Made by a program: the position numbers and the translations under genes. Below, piece by piece: positions 1 to 7,646 of a stretch of 64,000 nucleotides of DNA. The notes under the pieces were generated by a model that was given only the letters and a program-made list of their open reading frames with translations, ran no database searches and was not told the origin of the DNA. The stretch's first letter is position 1. Every line of letters begins with the position of its first letter. Origin of the DNA: Nocardioides panacis (lineage in GTDB: Bacteria; Actinomycetota; Actinomycetes; Propionibacteriales; Nocardioidaceae); the NCBI RefSeq assembly GCF_019039255.1, contig NZ_CP077062.1, positions 1-64,000 on the forward strand, written 5' to 3'.

Positions 1-847
1 GCACGACCACGCCGGGCAGGCTGGCGACCAGCACCAGGACGCCGTACGTGACCGCGGTGGCGACGCCGGCGGAGGCGCCGAGCCCGGCCGCGGAGAATGC
101 CCAGGCGGCGACCCCCTCGCGCGGGCCCCAGCCGGCGACGTTGGTCGGCACCGCCATCGCCAGCAGCACGAGCAGCGCGAGCGGCAGCAGCCGGACCGGT
201 GACGCGGGTACCCCGGCGGTGCGGGCCGCGACCCAAAAGACCGCCAGGTGGCCGACGACCGCGAGGCCGGACAGCAGCGCCACCCCGAGCGGTGACCCGC
301 GGGTGGCGAGGGCGTGCAGGTCCGTGCGGAGCACCGGCACCGCGACGCGGACGACGAGCAGACCCACCGCGGCCGCGGCGACCGCGACGAGCAGCACGCG
401 CGGCATCGAGGAGCGGACCGGGGACGGCAGCACCAGCAGGACCACCACCGCCACGGCCCCCTGGGTGACCTGCCCCGCCACCCGCTCCCAGGCGACCGCC
501 CGCAGCGCGCGACCGGTGGCCCGGACCTCCCGGCCGTGCCGCACCCCCCGGTGCACGTCGCCGACGACGCCGCCGGGCAGCGTGGTGTTGAGCAGCTGGG
601 CACGGTACGACGCCGCGACCGCCGTCCGCAGGGGCAGGTCCAGGCCCAGGCCGGCGGCGACCAGCCGCCACCGCCACGCACCGCAGACCGTGGTCGCGAC
701 GGTGACCGCGGACGCGGCGCCGACCGCCCAGGCGTCGAGGGCGCGCAGCCCGTCGACGAACGGGCCGGCGCCGACCCGGGCGACCAGCAGCACCAGCACG
801 CCGGCGCCGGCCAGCAGCCGCGCCCACCGCCAGCGCCCGGCGGTCAC
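1..847 (-). CDS. Flippase-like membrane protein (LPG_synthase_TM / UPF0104 family), partial
   Basis: The 3' end lies outside the window; about 282 residues are visible from a GTG at 847. The product is highly hydrophobic with several membrane segments. It has the two family signatures: NTTLPGGVVGDVHRG near residue 86, and VPTNVAGWGPREG in the C-terminal third. This family is the integral-membrane part of lysylphosphatidylglycerol synthases and occurs alone in many lipid and glycolipid clusters, where lipid translocation is suspected but rarely shown. Its start overlaps the glycosyltransferase stop (GTGA), implying translational coupling and a shared pathway. The substrate is unknown. Confidence 0.82.
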   Translation of the reverse strand, partial: MTAGRWRWARLLAGAGVLVLLVARVGAGPFVDGLRALDAWAVGAASAVTVATTVCGAWRWRLVAAGLGLDLPLRTAVAASYRAQLLNTTLPGGVVGDVHRGVRHGREVRATGRALRAVAWERVAGQVTQGAVAVVVLLVLPSPVRSSMPRVLLVAVAAAAVGLLVVRVAVPVLRTDLHALATRGSPLGVALLSGLAVVGHLAVFWVAARTAGVPASPVRLLPLALLVLLAMAVPTNVAGWGPREGVAAWAFSAAGLGASAGVATAVTYGVLVLVASLPGVVV

Positions 848-1897
848 GCGGCCACCCCGCACAGCACGCGGGCGACCCGCTCGGTGGTCGCCGGCCAGCC
901 CGCGAGAGCCTCGCGCCGGGCCCGGGCGGCCTCCCGCAGCCCGGCGCGCAGCGCCGCGCTCGGTCAGCCACCGCTCCAGCGCCGTGCCCAGCGCGTCGGC
1001 GTCGTGCGGCGGCACCAGCAGCCCGGGGCGCCGGCCGTCCGGCAGCGTGCCCAGCGCCTCGGGGACGCCGCCGACGGTGGTCGCGACCACCGGCAGCCCG
1101 CGGGCGAGCGCCTCGGTGACGACCATCCCGTAGCTCTCCAGCCGGGTCGGCAGCACCAGCAGGTCCGCCGACGCGTACGCCGCGGCGAGGGCGTCACCGC
1201 GCAGGGCGTCGTGGAAGCAGACCCGGTCCGCCAGGCCGGCGCCCGCCACCTGGCGCCGGACCCGGGCGACGTACGCCGGGTCGCGGGTCAGCGAGCCGAC
1301 GACGCTGCACCGCCAGGGCAGGCCGGAGACGCCGGCGAGCGCCGAGACCAGCAGGTCGTGGCCCTTGTGCCGGGACACCGCCGCGACGCAGAGCAGCCGG
1401 CCGCCGGTCGGCGTGCCCCGCGCCAGGCCGGCGGGGTCGACCCCGGGCTCGGCGACGTGCACCCGCTCGGGACGCAGGCCGTGCCGCTCGAGCAGCAGGC
1501 AGCGGGTCCACCGGCTCGTGGTCAGCACCGCCCCGGCGGCGGCCAGCACCGCGTGCTCGGCCGCGCCGAGCGGCATGTGCACCAGGACGACCAGCCGCAC
1601 CCGGGCGGACTGCGGCACCAGCACGGCGGCCGCGGCCGCGGCGACCAGGCCGTCCACCAGCAGCAGCACGTCGTCCGGCACCCCCGCCACGACGGAGGCC
1701 AGCGCGGCGAGCGCCGCGGCGTCCGGTCGCGGCCAGCACCCCGGCACGGCGTGCTCGTGCACCCTCCAGCCCGCCGACCGCAGGCCGTCGAGCACCCGCC
1801 GGTCGTAGGCGTTGCCGCCACTCGGCCGGGCCGGGTCGTCCAGCCCCTCGGGCACGACGGCGTGCACGGTGCCCGTGCGCGGCGGCCGGCCGGTCAC
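844..1897 (-). CDS. Family 4 glycosyltransferase (GT-B fold)
   Basis: About 350 residues starting at GTG 1897, which overlaps the upstream stop (GTGA). The C-terminal nucleotide-sugar domain shows the GT4 pattern: [16 protein letters not shown], then a [17 protein letters not shown] motif whose E...E pair binds the donor, then TTVGGVPE. The last roughly 30 codons make sense only after deleting one base near 952-962, giving a helix ending in LCGVAA and a TGA at 844 coupled to the flippase-like gene. Neighbours (PTPS-like protein, dehydrogenase, flippase-like protein) suggest it glycosylates a lipid or pterin-like acceptor. That role is inferred; the sugar and acceptor cannot be read from sequence. 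Confidence 0.85.
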
Positions 1898-2292
1898 GGT
1901 GCCCGCTCGTAGCTGGCCCACGCGACGGGCGACTCGTGCAGCGTCACCGCGATCGCGGCGAGCTCGTCGGCGTCGAGGCCGAGGGCGCCCTGCCGGACCC
2001 GGTCGGCCAGCCGGTCCGCGACGACCTGCGCGAGCACCTCGGTGGTGGTGTTCAGCCCGGCCAGCGACGGGTCCTCGTCGAGGTTGCCGTAGGACAGCGC
2101 GCCGACGACGGCGTGCAGCTCCTCGGCCGCCCGCCCGATGTCGACGACTATCCCGTCGGCGTCCAGCCGCGCGCGGCGGAACGTCACGTCCACCACGAAC
2201 GTGGCCCCGTGCAGCTGCTGCGCCGGGCCGAACACCTCGCCGCGCAGGCTGTGGGCGACCATCATGTGGTCGCGGACCGTCACGCTGAACAC
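1894..2292 (-). CDS. 6-pyruvoyl-tetrahydropterin synthase / QueD-like protein with altered active site
   Basis: 132 residues, the normal size of a T-fold PTPS/QueD protein. GTG 2292 is chosen because the family begins MFSVTVRDH there; it overlaps the upstream dehydrogenase by 13 bp. The AHS motif supplies one zinc-type histidine, but the canonical HGH is HGA (QLHGATF), the usual catalytic cysteine between them is absent, and the LDH histidine motif reads LSY ([10 protein letters not shown]). The NTTTEVLA helix and the late VTLHES glutamate motif remain. Classical PTPS or QueD catalysis is therefore unlikely. This looks like a distinct actinobacterial subfamily that keeps the pterin-binding fold with another role. 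Confidence 0.85.
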
Positions 2293-3278
2293 GGCACCGC
2301 CCCCGTCCCGTAGGTGAGTGAGTGGCACAGCGCCGGCAGGTCGCCGGTGGCGAGTCGCGGCATCACCTCCGGCAGCTCCTCGAACCGGGACTCGCCGGTC
2401 AGCAGGACGTCGTACGCCGGGTCGCGCAGCAGGTCCAGGGCGAGGGCGAGCCGCTCGCGGGTGGTCCGGCGGCCGCGGCGCGCCGCCGCGACGGTGCCCA
2501 CCTGGCTGGCCCGCACCGCCAGCCGCCCCGAGTGGAACGAGCCGCCCAGCGACACGGTGGTCTCCGCGTCGCCGTACCAGCTCAGCTCGAGCACCTCCGC
2601 CTCCGGCGCCAGCAGGTCGAGGGACAGCTGCAGCCCCGCGGACGTGGCGGTGGTGTGCACCACCAGGTCGCGGCCCCCGGGCGCGGCGTCGGGCTCCGCG
2701 AACGACGCGCCCAGCGCGGCCGCGACGGGCGCCCGGCCGGCGTCCACGTCGACGAGCGTCACCTCGACGCCGGGGACCTGCGCGAGCAGCCGGGCGACGC
2801 AGCAGCCGACCATGCCGGCCCCGACCACGGCGACCCGGTCGCCGAGGAGGGGAGCGGCGTCCCACAGGGCGTTCACGGCGGTCTCGACGGCCCCGGCGAG
2901 CACCGCCCGGGCGGTCGGCACCCCGTCGGGGACCAGCGTGAGCGCGTCGACGGGGACGACGTACGCCGTCTGGTGCGGGTAGAGGCAGAACACCGTCCGT
3001 CCCCGCAGCGCGGCCGGTCCCTCCTCCACGACTCCGACGCTGAGGTAGCCGTACTTGACCGGTCCCGGGAAGTCGCCGTCCTGGAACGGCGCCCGCATCA
3101 CCGCGTGCTGGCTGACCGGCACCCCGCCGCGGAACACCAGCGACTCGGTGCCGCGGCTCACCCCGGACCGCAGGGTGCGCACCAGCGCCTCGCCCGCGCC
3201 CGGCCGCGGCAGCCGGACGCGGCGGATCTCGCCGGCACCGGGGCCGCTCACCCAGAACGCCTGCGCCTCAGTCTCCAT
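2280..3278 (-). CDS. Zinc-less medium-chain dehydrogenase (MDR family, BchC-like)
   Basis: 332 residues. It has a GroES-like N-terminal half and a Rossmann half with [17 protein letters not shown] near residue 150. The Cys-x-x-Asp of zinc alcohol dehydrogenases is replaced by GVSRGTES, and the GHE zinc site reads VKYGYLSVG, as in bacteriochlorophyllide dehydrogenase (BchC)-type MDR proteins. An NAD(P)-dependent oxidoreductase without catalytic zinc is expected. It is the first gene of a leftward operon (dehydrogenase, PTPS-like, GT4, flippase-like), all with overlapping ends, so it probably modifies the same product. Confidence 0.85.
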
Positions 3279-3364
3279 CGGCCCTTCCCACCCGCCCCCG
3301 TTGAACCGGGACCGCCACCCGTCCGTCTACCTGCTGTCCCCCCATGAACGGAGGCCGGGTGCCG
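3279..3364. promoter_or_regulatory. Divergent intergenic region of the pterin-like/glycolipid cluster
   Basis: This 86-bp gap separates the leftward dehydrogenase operon from the rightward CDP-alcohol phosphatidyltransferase operon, so it must carry both promoters or lie between them. The ribosome binding site GGAGG at 3350-3354 is 10 nt before ATG 3365. The earlier ATG at 3344 has no such site, which decides the start of the rightward gene. No clear operator palindrome is visible. Confidence 0.5.
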
Positions 3365-4070
3365 ATGGTTCAACGTGGTCCGATGCTCGGCCTGCTCGCG
3401 CAGCTGTCCGTGCTGGCCGGGCTCGCCGCGACGGTCGGGCTCGGCGCCCCCGGCTGGGCGGTCGGCCTGGCCTGCGGCTCCGTCACGGCGGGCGCCCTGA
3501 CGGTGGCGCTGCCCGCCCATGGTCTGGACCGGTTGGGCCCGGCGGACCGGGTCACGCTGACCCGCGCCGTGCTCGTCGGCGGGGTCGCCGCGCTGGTGGC
3601 CGCCCACCCGGCGCCGGTGGCGCTGCTCGTCGGGCTGGCCGCGGTGGCGCTGGTGCTCGACCGGGTGGACGGCGAGGTGGCGCGGCGCACCGGATCGGTC
3701 TCCGGGTTCGGTGCGGCGTTCGACATGGAGGTCGACGCGTTCCTGGTCCTCGTGCTCAGCGTGTACGTCGCCCGCACCGCCGGGGCGTGGGTCCTGCTGA
3801 TCGGTCTCGCGCGCTACGCGCTCTGGGTCGCGGGGCGGTTCGCGCCATGGCTGCGGGAGCCGGTGCCGACCCGGCCGTGGGCCAAGGTGGTCGCCGCCGT
3901 CCAGGGGGGTGGTGCTGACCGCGGTCGCGGCCGACCTGCTCCCCGCCGCGGTGGAGGTGACCGCTCTCGTGCTGGCCCTGGTCCTGCTCACCGAGTCCTT
4001 CGCCCACCAGGTCCTCTGGCTCCGGCGGCACCGGGTGCCTGCCCCGGTCCGGGTCGGGGTGCCGACGTGA
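3365..4070 (+). CDS. CDP-alcohol phosphatidyltransferase family membrane protein (apparent frameshift)
   Basis: About 234 residues after repair. The full CDP-alcohol phosphotransferase signature D-x2-DG-x2-AR-x8-G-x3-D-x3-D is present near residues 100-125 (DRVDGEVARR...GAAFDMEVD), with flanking membrane helices. The reading frame breaks at the G6 run 3904-3909. Removing one G continues into VVLTAVAADLLPAAV and a TGA at 4068-4070 that overlaps the next start (GTGA). Such enzymes transfer a phospho-alcohol from CDP-alcohol to a membrane or soluble acceptor; the acceptor is unknown. It belongs with the downstream sulfatase-fold gene. Confidence 0.85.
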
Positions 4071-5683
4071 GGGCCGCCGGCCGGACAGCGACGGGGGTGC
4101 TGACCGGCCTGGCCCTCGCGCTGGTGTGGGTCGCGCTCGTGGTGCCGGACCAGCTCGCGCTGCTCACCCCGTCGGCGGCCGTGCGGATCCCGCTCGAGGT
4201 CGTGCTGCTCGGCCTGCTGGTGCTGGTCGTGCCCTGGCGGGCCGCCCGGGTCGTGCTGGTGCTGCTCGGGGTGCTGCTCGGCCTGCTGACCGTGGTCAAG
4301 GTGCTCGACATGGGGTTCTACGCGAGCCTCAACCGCCCCTTCGACTCGGTGATCGACTGGCGCTACCTGGGCTCGGCCGTCGGGCTGGTCGACGACTCCG
4401 TGGGCCGGCCGGCCGCGGTCGCCGCGGTGGTCCTCGCGGCGCTGGCCGTGCTGGCGCTGCTGGTGGTGATGCCGCTGGCGCTGCTGCGACTGGCGCGGGT
4501 CGCCACCCGGCACCGGCAGGGCACGCTGCGCGGCGTCGTCGCGCTCGGCACCGCCTGGGTGCTCTGCGCGGTGCTCGGCGTGCACGCGGCGCAGGGCGCG
4601 GACGTCGCGTCGACCAGCACGTCGACGTACGCCATCGGCCAGGTGCGCCGGATCCCCTCGGAGCTCCGCGACCAGCGGGCCTTCGCCCGGGCGGCGCAGG
4701 CCGACCCTCTGCGCCGCACGCCGGGAAGCCGGCTGCTGACCGGGCTCCGCGGCAAGGACGTGCTGTTCGTGTTCGTGGAGAGCTACGGCCGGGTCGCGGT
4801 CCAGGACTCCTCGATGGCGCCCGGCGTGGACCGGGTGCTGGCCGACGGCACCCGGCGGCTGGACGCCGCGGGCTTCGGGTCGCGCAGCGCCTTCCTCACC
4901 TCCCCGACGTTCGGCGCGATCAGCTGGCTGGCGCACTCCACGCTGCAGTCCGGGCTCTGGGTCGACAGCCAGCAGCGGTACGACGCGCTGGTCACCAGCC
5001 CGCGCTTCACGCTCAGCCAGGCCTTCGGGCGGGCCGGCTGGCGCACCGTGAGCGACGTGCCGGCCGACACCCACGACTGGCCGCAGGGCGCGTTCTACCA
5101 CTACGACCGGCTCTACGACTCGCGCAACGTCGGCTACCGCGGGCCCCGGTTCGGCTACCCGACGATGCCCGACCAGTACACCCTGGACGCGTTCCACCGT
5201 CTCGAGCTCGCCCGGCAGCACCGGCGGCCGGTGATGGCCGAGATCGACCTGATCAGCAGCCACGCCCCGTGGTCCCGGACCCCGCACCTGATCGACCAGG
5301 CCGCGGTCGGGGACGGGTCGGTGTTCGACGGGATGCCCGAGACGCTGCCCTCCGAGACGCAGGTCTGGCGGTCGCCGGAGCGGGTGCGGGCGGCCTACGG
5401 GCAGTCGATCGAGTACTCCCTGTCGGCGATCGTGTCCTACCTCGAGCACTACGGCGACGACCGGACGGTGCTCGTGTTCCTCGGCGACCACCAGCCGGCC
5501 CCGGTGGTCTCCGGGGCCGGTGCCGACCACGACGTGCCGGTGACCGTGGTGGCCAAGGACCCCGCGGTGCTGCACCGGATCGACTCCTGGCACTGGCAGC
5601 CCGGACTGCACCCGTCGCCGGCCGCCCCGGTGTGGCGGATGGACGCGTTCCGGGACCGGTTCCTCTCCGCGTTCGGGCCGTGA
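4067..5683 (+). CDS. Membrane-anchored sulfatase-fold protein (alkaline phosphatase superfamily)
   Basis: 538 residues from GTG 4067. The first 170 or so form about four membrane helices. The rest is an extracellular sulfatase-like domain: a metal-binding start (VLFVFVESYG), a threonine in SPTFGAISWL as likely nucleophile, and the late FLGDHQP metal motif. The layout resembles LTA synthase or phosphoethanolamine-transferase-type phosphotransferases more than true sulfatases, since no CxPSR formylglycine site is present. It may transfer or remove a phospho-group on the product of the preceding phosphatidyltransferase, to which it is translationally coupled. Confidence 0.8.
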   Translation: MRAAGRTATGVLTGLALALVWVALVVPDQLALLTPSAAVRIPLEVVLLGLLVLVVPWRAARVVLVLLGVLLGLLTVVKVLDMGFYASLNRPFDSVIDWRYLGSAVGLVDDSVGRPAAVAAVVLAALAVLALLVVMPLALLRLARVATRHRQGTLRGVVALGTAWVLCAVLGVHAAQGADVASTSTSTYAIGQVRRIPSELRDQRAFARAAQADPLRRTPGSRLLTGLRGKDVLFVFVESYGRVAVQDSSMAPGVDRVLADGTRRLDAAGFGSRSAFLTSPTFGAISWLAHSTLQSGLWVDSQQRYDALVTSPRFTLSQAFGRAGWRTVSDVPADTHDWPQGAFYHYDRLYDSRNVGYRGPRFGYPTMPDQYTLDAFHRLELARQHRRPVMAEIDLISSHAPWSRTPHLIDQAAVGDGSVFDGMPETLPSETQVWRSPERVRAAYGQSIEYSLSAIVSYLEHYGDDRTVLVFLGDHQPAPVVSGAGADHDVPVTVVAKDPAVLHRIDSWHWQPGLHPSPAAPVWRMDAFRDRFLSAFGP

Positions 5684-5736
5684 CCGGCCACACTGAACCT
5701 CCGGGAGCGGTGCCCCGTTACACCAGGGGAGGTGAG

Positions 5737-6249
5737 ATGGCAGACCACGAGGTCGCACTCATGCAGCAGCTGCACGACGAGCACGCCGCTGCGCTGTGGG
5801 GCTACTGCCTGAGCCTGACCGGCCACGACCGGGCCCGCGCCGAGGACGTCACGCAGGAGACCCTGCTGCGCGCCTGGCGCAACCGTGCCGTGCTCGACCG
5901 GCCCGGGTCCGCGGTCCGTGCCTGGCTGTTCACCGTCGCCCGCAACATCGTCATCGACGAGTGGCGGACCCGCCGCTCGCAGTCCGAGCTGACCGTGGCC
6001 GAGGTCCCCGAGCGGGCCGACGACGGCGACCGCACCGACCGGCTGCTGCTGTCCTGGGTGGTCGACGACGCGCTCACCCGGCTCTCGGAGGAGCACCGCG
6101 CGGTGCTGCTCGAGTGCTACTACCGGGGGATGCCGGTCGCCGAGGCAGCCCGTCACCTCGGGGTGCCGGAGGGCACAGTGAAGTCCCGCACGCACTACGC
6201 GCTGCGGGCGCTGAGGCTGGCGCTGGAGGAGATGGGGGTGACCGCATGA
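5737..6249 (+). CDS. ECF-family RNA polymerase sigma factor
   Basis: 170 residues with a strong ribosome binding site (GGGGAGGTGAG) before ATG 5737. Region 2 includes GYCLSLTGHDRARAEDVTQE and the -10-reading helix around RAWLFTVARNIVIDEWR. Region 4 has LLECYYRGMPVAEAARHLGV and GTVKSRTHYALRAL, the -35 helix-turn-helix. Its stop overlaps the start of the anti-sigma gene (ATGA). It is expected to direct a small envelope-stress-type regulon and often its own promoter; targets are not evident here. Confidence 0.93.
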   Translation: MADHEVALMQQLHDEHAAALWGYCLSLTGHDRARAEDVTQETLLRAWRNRAVLDRPGSAVRAWLFTVARNIVIDEWRTRRSQSELTVAEVPERADDGDRTDRLLLSWVVDDALTRLSEEHRAVLLECYYRGMPVAEAARHLGVPEGTVKSRTHYALRALRLALEEMGVTA

Positions 6250-6947
6250 GCTGCGAGTTCGCGCACCAGGACGGCTCCTACGTCCTGGGCGCCCTGTCCT
6301 CGAGCGAGCGGATGGCGTTCGAGCACCACCTGGCGGCCTGCCCCGACTGCGCCCGGGCGGTGCGCCGGCTGGCCGGGCTCCCCGGGCTGCTGGCGCGGGT
6401 CGACGGGTCGGTGCTGGAGGGCGCGCCCGTCGCCGAGCCGGTGCCCGGGACGCTGCTGCCCCGGCTGGTCGCGGACGTACGACGGACCCGGCACCGCCGC
6501 ACCGTGCTCACCGGAGCCGTCGCGGCCGCTGCGCTGGTGGTCGCCGGCGTCGTGCCGGTCGTGGTCGCCGAGGCGCTGTCGCACGACCGGCCCTCGGCGG
6601 CGGCACCGGCCGTCACCGGCAGCCCGGCACCCGGCACCCCCATGGTGCCGCTGGGCGGCGCGCCGGTGCGGGCCACGATCGCCCTCGACCCCGTCGCGTG
6701 GGGGACCCGGCTGGACCTGGCCTGCACCTACGAGCCGCGTGCCGACCAGTACGAGCTGCCGGCCGTGGCGACGTACGTCCTGGTCGTGCGCACCCGCGAC
6801 GGCCGCACCGAGCAGGTCGGCACCTGGCGGTCGATCGGCGGCCGGACGATGCGGCTCACCGCCGCCACCTCGGTGCGGCGCTCGCAGATCGCCTCAGTGG
6901 AGGTGCGCACCACGAGCGGCAGACGGGTGCTGCAGCTGACCGCGTGA
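6246..6947 (+). CDS. Zinc-associated anti-sigma factor (ZAS, membrane-anchored)
   Basis: 233 residues. The N-terminal zf-HC2/ZAS motif HHLAACPDC (H-x3-C-x2-C) is at about residues 28-36. One membrane helix (LTGAVAAAALVVAGVVPVVV) lies near residues 88-108, followed by an extracellular beta-rich C-terminal domain of about 120 residues. It is coupled to the sigma factor by a 4-bp overlap and should hold it inactive at the membrane. Its 3' end overlaps the convergent membrane-protein gene by 54 bp. Confidence 0.9.
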   Translation: MSCEFAHQDGSYVLGALSSSERMAFEHHLAACPDCARAVRRLAGLPGLLARVDGSVLEGAPVAEPVPGTLLPRLVADVRRTRHRRTVLTGAVAAAALVVAGVVPVVVAEALSHDRPSAAAPAVTGSPAPGTPMVPLGGAPVRATIALDPVAWGTRLDLACTYEPRADQYELPAVATYVLVVRTRDGRTEQVGTWRSIGGRTMRLTAATSVRRSQIASVEVRTTSGRRVLQLTA

Positions 6948-7301
6948 GTCGGCACGCAGCGTGCCGGCCAGCAGCACGGCGCCCCCGACGATGGCCACGA
7001 CCTCGCTGACCGCCGCGGTCCAGACCGGCCAGCCGATCCAGTGCTCGTGCACGCCGAAGAGCCCCACCGTCGCCGCCACGACGAAGGCGCCGAGCGTCGA
7101 GACCCCGAAGCCGAGCGCCAGCAGCGCGGGCAGCCAGTGCCGCCACCGCACCAGCAGCACCGCGATGACCAGGCCGCCGGCGGCGTTCAGCAGGAACGCC
7201 GGACCGATCACGGCCTGGCCGCTGAAGACGTCGAACCACAGGTAGAGGTGCACGGCCGCCGAGACCAGCACCGCTGCGGCCGTCACGAGTCGCATGTTCA
7301 T
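6894..7301 (-). CDS. Small four-helix membrane protein, function unknown
   Basis: 135 residues with four predicted membrane segments (LVTAAAVLVSAAVHLYLWF, AFLLNAAGGLVIAVLLV, LPALLALGFGVSTLGAFVV, AAVSEVVAIVGGAVLLAG). HLYLWF in helix 1 recalls small actinobacterial integral-membrane proteins of unknown role. Two start ATGs (7301, 7295) follow a GGAGAG site. The tail overlaps the convergent anti-sigma gene by 54 bp; the last codons (QLQHPSAARGAHLH) are non-hydrophobic and may be dispensable. Confidence 0.65.
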   Translation of the reverse strand: MNMRLVTAAAVLVSAAVHLYLWFDVFSGQAVIGPAFLLNAAGGLVIAVLLVRWRHWLPALLALGFGVSTLGAFVVAATVGLFGVHEHWIGWPVWTAAVSEVVAIVGGAVLLAGTLRADSRGQLQHPSAARGAHLH

Positions 7302-7646
7302 GACACTCTCCGCTCTCCGAGTCGCTCCGGCGGGCGCCGGGCCTCATCGGAGAGACGGAGCGGGGCAACGGACGGTTCATCGGGGCCACACTCCCGACGA
7401 CGGGTCAATGGCCCGACCGGTCCGATCTGCTCACCGTTTCAGTCCTCTTGATGGTGCTATAAGGCTATTTCACTTTTTATGGCAAGTTGCGGCTTAAGTT
7501 ACGTGTCAAGGTGGTGCCCTGGCCGGTTCCACCGGCCGGGAGCGGGGCAGTGATACGTCCGGGTGATTGGTCGCCCAGGTGCCGGACGAGGAGCCAGAGG
7601 CGAAACCGACGCTCGTCGAGTCGGTCCGCGCCCAAGGGGTTCCCGC
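7302..7646. other. 345-bp intergenic region with an AT-rich island and a hairpin
   Basis: No convincing gene. Positions about 7440-7500 are markedly AT-rich for this genome (TGCTATAAGGCTATTTCAC and following), a likely promoter or regulatory region for the secreted protease gene at 7647. Downstream, GGCCGG (7521-7526) and CCGGCC (7532-7537) form a short perfect hairpin in the presumed leader. No T-tract follows, so it is not an obvious terminator. Confidence 0.45.

Follow-up and report, generated by a model that had tools for sequence, protein, structure and literature searches.

What product would call for a PTPS-like T-fold protein, a dehydrogenase, a glycosyltransferase and a set of membrane-lipid enzymes to be encoded side by side? 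The question is raised by the left end of the DNA analysed here, the first 64 kb (64,000 nucleotides, hereafter the window) of the single 4.90-Mb contig of Nocardioides panacis (Nocardioidaceae; GCF_019039255.1, contig NZ_CP077062.1). Two divergent gene groups lie there, one on the minus strand with an MDR-type dehydrogenase (ADH; 2280-3278), the PTPS-like protein (1894-2292), a GT4 glycosyltransferase (846-1897) and a flippase-like LPG_synthase_TM protein (1-849), the other on the plus strand with a CDP-alcohol phosphatidyltransferase (CDP-AP; 3344-4070) and a sulfatase-fold enzyme (4067-5683). We estimate a probability of roughly one half that these and neighbouring genes, some ten in all, form a dedicated pathway leading from GTP to a glycosylated, lipid-anchored and exported compound, which in the window's family would stand under an adjacent extracytoplasmic function (ECF) sigma factor of SigL type. 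Co-occurrence of the genes, second copies of RibA and RibD_C, gene fusions, an intact CDP-AP motif and a shared ECF promoter motif are counted in favour of this reading.

The initial annotation had treated the divergent halves as one cluster and mentioned similar groupings in other actinobacteria. Such groupings were found in many of them, including many named Streptomyces and Micromonospora, when the neighbourhood was analysed with the PTPS-like protein as anchor. A profile search of GTDB genome contigs gave at least 583 encoding stretches, and the 80 best of these, taken with their flanks, were joined with 40 regions from further genomes; the resulting set of 120 loci is rich in Streptomyces, holds several loci that end at contig ends, may contain repeats between both collections, and includes a locus with a QueD-like PTPS and no cluster (L192) as well as two contigs of one genome (L155 and L156). 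The PTPS-like gene, present in all 120, is accompanied by GT4 in 119, ADH in 118, the flippase-like gene in 106, CDP-AP in 103, a methyltransferase in 91, the GTP cyclohydrolase II RibA in 88, a RibD_C reductase in 71 and a creatininase-family gene in 46; the sulfatase, found in 44, is an accessory gene. GT4 and the methyltransferase are fused in two distant loci (L166 and L191), and L166 also carries a RibA-RibD_C fusion.

A second sample comprised 296 genomes of the class, in a count that disregards three genomes (G156, G168 and G196), which gave weak PTPS matches alone, as well as a weak second PTPS match in G190. Strong PTPS-like and ADH matches occur in the identical 43 genomes, and CDP-AP occurs in 45; 41 of these also have PTPS, and in 37 of the 41 the two genes lie within 10 kb (Fisher p = 4e-43 for co-occurrence of the divergent halves, kinship ignored). 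Because PTPS, ADH and CDP-AP co-occur in this sample, the halves belong together and pass the neighbourhood check proposed with the initial annotation, and there is strong evidence that they are one co-inherited system. Presence in the window's own family is patchy, with a PTPS match in 26 of 120 genomes (one of them weak), and in a sample of the phylum 79 of 396 genomes gave profile matches that are mostly weak and perhaps represent ordinary PTPS or QueD.

All families named in the initial annotation are present. PTPS, GT4 (3.4e-26), LPG_synthase_TM (6.4e-23), CDP-OH_P_transf (2.7e-12) and Sulfatase (3.8e-07) exceed their Pfam cut-offs, and the dehydrogenase is recognized by PDB profile match. 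CDP-alcohol phosphotransferases share the motif D-x2-DG-x2-AR-x8-G-x3-D-x3-D, all eight residues of which are invariant in 25 aligned rows of CDP-AP. The sulfatase-fold enzyme, which has an N-terminal hydrophobic region, gave a weak profile match to the lipoteichoic acid (LTA) primase 4uop (E 0.0022) and no match as a single sequence. Attachment of the product to a lipid is moderately supported; that the product would be a surface phosphoglycolipid, as the initial annotation had it, is unproven and is suggested by the families present (the CDP-AP motif, the flippase-like protein, GT4 and a distantly LTA-type fold). A soluble pterin or diaminopyrimidine glycoside could be made instead, with the membrane proteins merely exporting it or serving a neighbouring envelope function. 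Pterin glycosides are known in cyanobacteria, and GT4, methyltransferase and PTPS-like genes do make up the tightest core of the 120 loci; nevertheless CDP-AP accompanies PTPS in 41 of the 43 genomes with its motif intact, and it is hard to see what an intact CDP-alcohol transferase would do in the synthesis of a soluble glycoside, which renders this alternative unlikely.

The lipid-anchored compound proposed here would begin with GTP, and the evidence for this lies beyond the window's left edge. The expectation that more genes would be found left of position 1 proved correct once that flank was read from the other end of the contig: positions 1-27807 of the window recur there (G000:C1:4873978-4901775, about 27.8 kb) with 99.96% of positions identical, the copies showing 11 one-base gaps and 0 mismatches, as expected for the untrimmed ends of a circular assembly. 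This overlap allows the locus to be read a second time and opens up its left flank. RibD_C (L003:15241-15930, equal to G000:C1:4873240-4873929) and RibA (L003:14607-15239, equal to G000:C1:4872606-4873238) follow on the same strand as the flippase-like gene. The cluster RibA matches the Pfam GTP cyclohydrolase II family (1.7e-54), exceeds the cut-off of NF001591, stays below that of TIGR00505 and keeps the active-site Tyr (AYALQ); by sequence it belongs to the GTP cyclohydrolase II family. RibD_C (Pfam 1.4e-38) has no deaminase domain; its best NCBIfam match is TIGR01508 (6e-37), the archaeal-type reductase of 2,5-diamino-6-ribosylamino-4(3H)-pyrimidinone 5'-phosphate (DARoPP), and its top PDB relatives include 5xv5, 6p8c (DARoPP reductase) and 2azn. 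A GTP-derived start has good support from sequence where RibA sits in the cluster, and since RibA and RibD_C occupy the left flank a GTP-derived pyrimidine or pterin component becomes more likely; of the ring types suggested initially, the pterin-type component gains support, in the wider form of a pterin- or diaminopyrimidine-type one.

Both enzymes have counterparts elsewhere in the genome: the cluster RibA shares 55% identity over 169 residues with a further GTP cyclohydrolase II match, located at 2322236 within a frame of 689 aa, and a better RibD_C match lies at 2324720, along with ten weaker matches to the RibD_C family. These copies bear on two further explanations. The first is a surface glycolipid containing no pyrimidine, for which the PTPS-like protein, RibA and RibD_C would provide a cofactor or have a sensing role; the loss of catalytic residues from the PTPS-like protein (see below) and the loci in which RibA or RibD_C is not near the cluster would fit it, but PTPS and ADH share the same 43 of 296 genomes, RibA and RibD_C are fused within a cluster and both are present as dedicated second copies; we rate it, like the soluble glycoside, as unlikely. 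The second is a side branch of flavin metabolism, giving extra riboflavin precursor or a flavin lipid, to which RibA and RibD_C would contribute as early riboflavin enzymes. It is distinctly unlikely, because later riboflavin genes lie outside the cluster (the genes identified between L003:14607 and window position 7379 include no RibB, RibH or RibE), another RibA and RibD exist in the genome, and the cluster RibD_C has no deaminase domain.

In the dedicated-pathway reading, RibA may act differently in the Streptomyces-type clusters. Loss of the active-site Tyr in Streptomyces coelicolor RibA homologues reportedly leads to a formylated product. Among the 87 loci with a RibA above 150 bits, the Tyr is kept in 42, all 42 with a RibD_C match and none with the creatininase-family gene, and replaced in 45 (Met 39, Leu 3, His 2, Gln 1), all 45 with creatininase and 11 with RibD_C nearby. 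This creatininase (Pfam Creatininase 1.4e-60) belongs to the Streptomyces-type clusters alone. The creatininase-family protein BrbF of Sinorhizobium is described as deformylating the same GTP-derived intermediate (PMC9478397).

The ring itself would be handled by the PTPS-like protein and the dehydrogenase. The former, read as 132 aa from an upstream GTG start as in its relatives, is similar in sequence to the T-fold (Pfam PTPS 6.8e-25, above cut-off), and its family matches PDB entry 3d7j, the Streptomyces coelicolor protein SCO6650, over the full length (profile match 8.8e-70). That structure carries the PDB label 'Uncharacterized protein', and it is said (Spoonamore and others 2008) to be without zinc and PTPS activity; no pathway assigned to the protein was found in the literature open to search. 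In alignments, the residues that we take to be the catalytic Cys, the catalytic Asp-His pair and the zinc-binding His compare as follows: at the position of the Cys ahead of the HGH motif, both the window protein and the distant L191 have Ala, and the QueD-like L192 and 2g64 have Cys; H11 and H25 are kept, and the third zinc His is replaced by Ala27, invariant in 28 aligned relatives and retained as His in L191 and L192; the Asp-His pair is altered (His to Tyr) compared with canonical PTPS and a QueD-like relative. The protein therefore has neither the catalytic Cys nor the three zinc His of PTPS and QueD. Glu117, presumably the ring-binding Glu, is invariant in the alignment. The dehydrogenase, below every Pfam cut-off, matches MDR alcohol dehydrogenases in PDB by profile and is distantly BchC-like, BchC being its best NCBIfam match (32 bits, cut-off 291). 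Queuosine or deazapurine-type chemistry, suggested initially as a deazapurine-like component and by a weak QueD similarity (37.7 bits, cut-off 89.25), has a negligible probability and was rejected on the missing catalytic residues (the Cys, the Asp-His pair and one zinc His), with no QueE or QueC among the genes identified in the window cluster and none seen by eye, without an HMM scan, among the 40 commonest neighbour families.

What switches the window cluster on is probably the adjacent stress-type sigma factor. An ECF sigma gene (5737-6249, plus; NF007227, 223.7 bits, cut-off 202) is followed by an anti-sigma gene with a zf-HC2 domain and an HxxxCxxC motif (6246-6947, plus) and, on the opposite strand, by a small membrane protein gene (6894-7301, minus), whose relatives accompany the cluster at 7 of the 120 loci. 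Where 1.2 occurrences of the motif TGAACC-N15..17-CGT would be expected in the window there are 7, a number reached in 0 of 100 shuffles; the motif was first spotted by eye in the window, which makes this count post hoc and the genome scan and the relatives the better tests. Four of the seven, each with a 16-base spacer, stand just before genes and are predicted to be ECF promoters: TGAACC-N16-CGTC at 3302-3327 (plus) ahead of the CDP-AP/sulfatase unit, TGAACC-N16-CGTT at 3347-3372 (minus) ahead of the ADH-PTPS-GT4-flippase-RibD_C-RibA unit, TGAACC-N16-CGTT at 5694-5719 (plus) ahead of the sigma/anti-sigma pair, and TGAACC-N16-CGTC at 7354-7379 (minus) ahead of the small membrane protein. Genome-wide, TGAACC-N16-CGTY gave 39 matches, 35 without the repeated contig end, against 6 for a reversed control. 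The remaining 31 sites comprise 28 inside called genes and 3 intergenic ones, labels that are approximate because the genes were called with a simple caller of our own; one site lies within 200 bp ahead of a called start. The gene that follows this site at a distance of 29 bases (844-1350, minus, in L200, G000:C1:1245300-1247300) is small and lipoprotein-like, and is a possible further regulon member.

Among relatives placed in the window's family the exact TGAACC-N16-CGT was found ahead of ADH in 11 of 14 loci, of CDP-AP in 13 of 14 and of the ECF gene in 8 of 10. Twelve loci, all of this family, have an anti-sigma relative in varying orientation no more than a few kb from the cluster, with a sigma gene called in 10 of them. 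Shared ECF control in the window's family thus has strong support from the motif and its placement. The motif also precedes ADH and/or CDP-AP in some loci of other families (for example f15, f41 and 5 of 20 Micromonosporaceae loci). SigL-type regulons are characterized by an autoregulated ECF sigma factor, a zinc anti-sigma factor and TGAACC-N16-18-CGT promoters, and the window motif resembles what we take to be the mycobacterial SigL promoter. In mycobacteria SigL is described as paired with a redox-sensitive zinc anti-sigma factor (PMC2877774, PMC13002591), and one report has this anti-sigma factor controlling cell-wall and polyketide genes (PMC2877774).

Several observations weigh against a dedicated pathway of this form, or against its generality. 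The motif stands ahead of ADH or CDP-AP in 0 of 42 Streptomycetaceae loci, and family f18 is without it (ADH 0/10, CDP-AP 0/9), so ECF control of the cluster is not general. CDP-AP is not co-localised with PTPS in 4 of the 41 genomes that share them, and across the 296 genomes PTPS occurs without CDP-AP in two and CDP-AP without PTPS in four. RibA is near 88 and RibD_C near 71 of the 120 loci, so that one or the other is absent from the vicinity of many, some of these loci being truncated where the contig stops; several Nocardioidaceae-type loci hold RibD_C with no RibA nearby. At the level of single enzymes, RibD_C misses the TIGR01508 cut-off (126.9 against 186.45 bits), and the creatininase is below all NCBIfam cut-offs, its nearest model being MftE of mycofactocin (127 of 172 bits), with ArfB weak (36 of 180); the BrbF report leaves distant homologues open and has one that failed to complement (PMC9478397). 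L192, counted among the 42 Tyr loci, has no cluster, and on an ADH tree of the 85 of 87 RibA loci with a strong ADH (L180 and L192 dropped) the Tyr/creatininase pattern is a single change, which means that the link fits the chemistry without being repeated evidence, and its weight was lowered. A search of the window genome for the methyltransferase, made with no positive control, gave no match.

Taken together, the preferred pathway may be pictured as follows. RibA would open GTP to give DARoPP; where the Tyr is replaced by Met, Leu, His or Gln, in clusters of Streptomyces type, RibA would halt at the formylated intermediate, which the creatininase-family hydrolase would deformylate. RibD_C would then convert the ribosyl into a ribityl chain with the 2-amino group left on, and the PTPS-like protein, having no catalytic triad, may act with the dehydrogenase in binding or rearranging a 2-amino-4-oxo-pyrimidine or pterin ring. 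GT4 would add a sugar, the methyltransferase that is often in the clusters would methylate, CDP-AP would put the unit onto a lipid phosphate, the flippase-like protein would move the lipid-bound unit outward, and the sulfatase-fold enzyme, where present, could modify the product outside the cell. Gene content, co-occurrence, the conserved motifs and the promoter motifs are observed directly; the first steps and the lipid coupling are what we infer from the gene families; the order of steps, the ring chemistry and the final product are speculative, and any exact identity for the product is weakly supported. Taken further, the product might be a membrane lipid of a new class: a phospholipid that is glycosylated and has a guanine-derived, easily oxidised headgroup (a ribityl-diaminopyrimidine or reduced pterin). 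It would be made on demand, when a zinc-thiol anti-sigma factor senses oxidative damage to the envelope, and would serve as a membrane-bound antioxidant or redox carrier; this we hold to be doubtful.

The second reading of the locus also corrects its outline. Relative to the contig-end copy, a single base is inserted in the window near each of 959, 3338 and 3904, and one is missing near 5007. In the contig-end copy GT4 stops at the flippase junction and CDP-AP just ahead of the sulfatase, and the sulfatase frame is broken near 5007. In the window the GT4 frame is broken near 959 and that of CDP-AP near 3904, both intact in the contig-end copy, and the flippase-like gene, truncated by the window edge, continues at the contig end (L003). 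Fused proteins read from the ORFs 2-1921 (minus) and 3344-5683 (plus) were accordingly rejected, since the indels near 959 (GT4/flippase) and 3904 (CDP-AP/sulfatase) make these long frames artefacts, and the contig-end copy and the relatives have separate genes. The frame breaks close to the contig ends are probably sequencing errors, as the two copies differ by the 11 one-base gaps alone. The tight coupling of divergent operons described initially holds, with GTGA overlaps at the ADH/PTPS, PTPS/GT4, GT4/flippase and CDP-AP/sulfatase junctions; the fused frames do not, and the unit is larger than described, reaching rightward to about 7.38 kb with the ECF sigma, anti-sigma and small membrane protein genes. 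At the RibA end, a frame-broken M1-peptidase-like gene (L003:12414-14685) is convergent with the cluster.

Variation around the cluster was noted in other genomes. A second, distinct methyltransferase family lies near it in 10 of 120 loci (L071:16832-17596, L076, L080, L141, L156, L158, L161, L162, L181 and L183), some of them without the usual methyltransferase. A polyketide-cyclase/START-like protein adjoins CDP-AP in L166:15063-15542 (Pfam), and a similar-looking one was seen by eye near ADH in L153:5843-6469. L068 (SCSG01000020.1), on a contig filed as a Burkholderiaceae metagenome-assembled genome, holds a typical actinobacterial cluster with a 70% identical PTPS, which could reflect misbinning of the contig or a transfer. 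In L191 (G460:C1:688000-707500), from a member of the phylum outside the window's class, a distant RibD_C-ADH-PTPS-GT4/methyltransferase run has a PTPS keeping the HGH zinc motif and is perhaps an earlier form of the system.

No paper describing the cluster was found by title and abstract in the openly licensed literature; subscription journals were outside the search and may hold such work. The cluster would link nucleotide-ring chemistry with membrane-lipid assembly, and its study could assign a role to SCO6650 (3d7j), a protein of the same PTPS-like family as the window protein whose structure is solved but labelled uncharacterized. Through the neighbouring ECF sigma factor there is a simple way to turn the cluster on and so to look for its product.

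Among known systems, the cyanobacterial pterin glycosides combine a pterin-type ring with a glycosyltransferase, as the cluster would, but their start enzyme is not that of the cluster, and we know of no CDP-alcohol transferase or flippase there. The sulfatase-fold enzymes of LTA synthesis resemble the cluster sulfatase through the 4uop match, too weak for membership, and differ in that the cluster gene is missing from most loci. The SigL-RslA regulon is similar in its ECF sigma factor, HxxxCxxC zinc anti-sigma factor and TGAACC-N16-CGT motif; its targets differ, and the likeness is one of motif and gene pair. A close parallel to the proposed chemistry is found in the archaeal riboflavin route (ArfA, ArfB and ArfC) and in BrbF, with GTP opening, deformylation by a creatininase fold and reduction before deamination, and the cluster RibD_C is closest to archaeal-type reductases. 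The cluster, however, would start with a GTP cyclohydrolase II-type RibA and not with ArfA, and in place of a deaminase and the later riboflavin genes it has GT4, CDP-AP and the flippase-like gene; what would be new here is that early steps of riboflavin type are joined to lipid coupling and to export.

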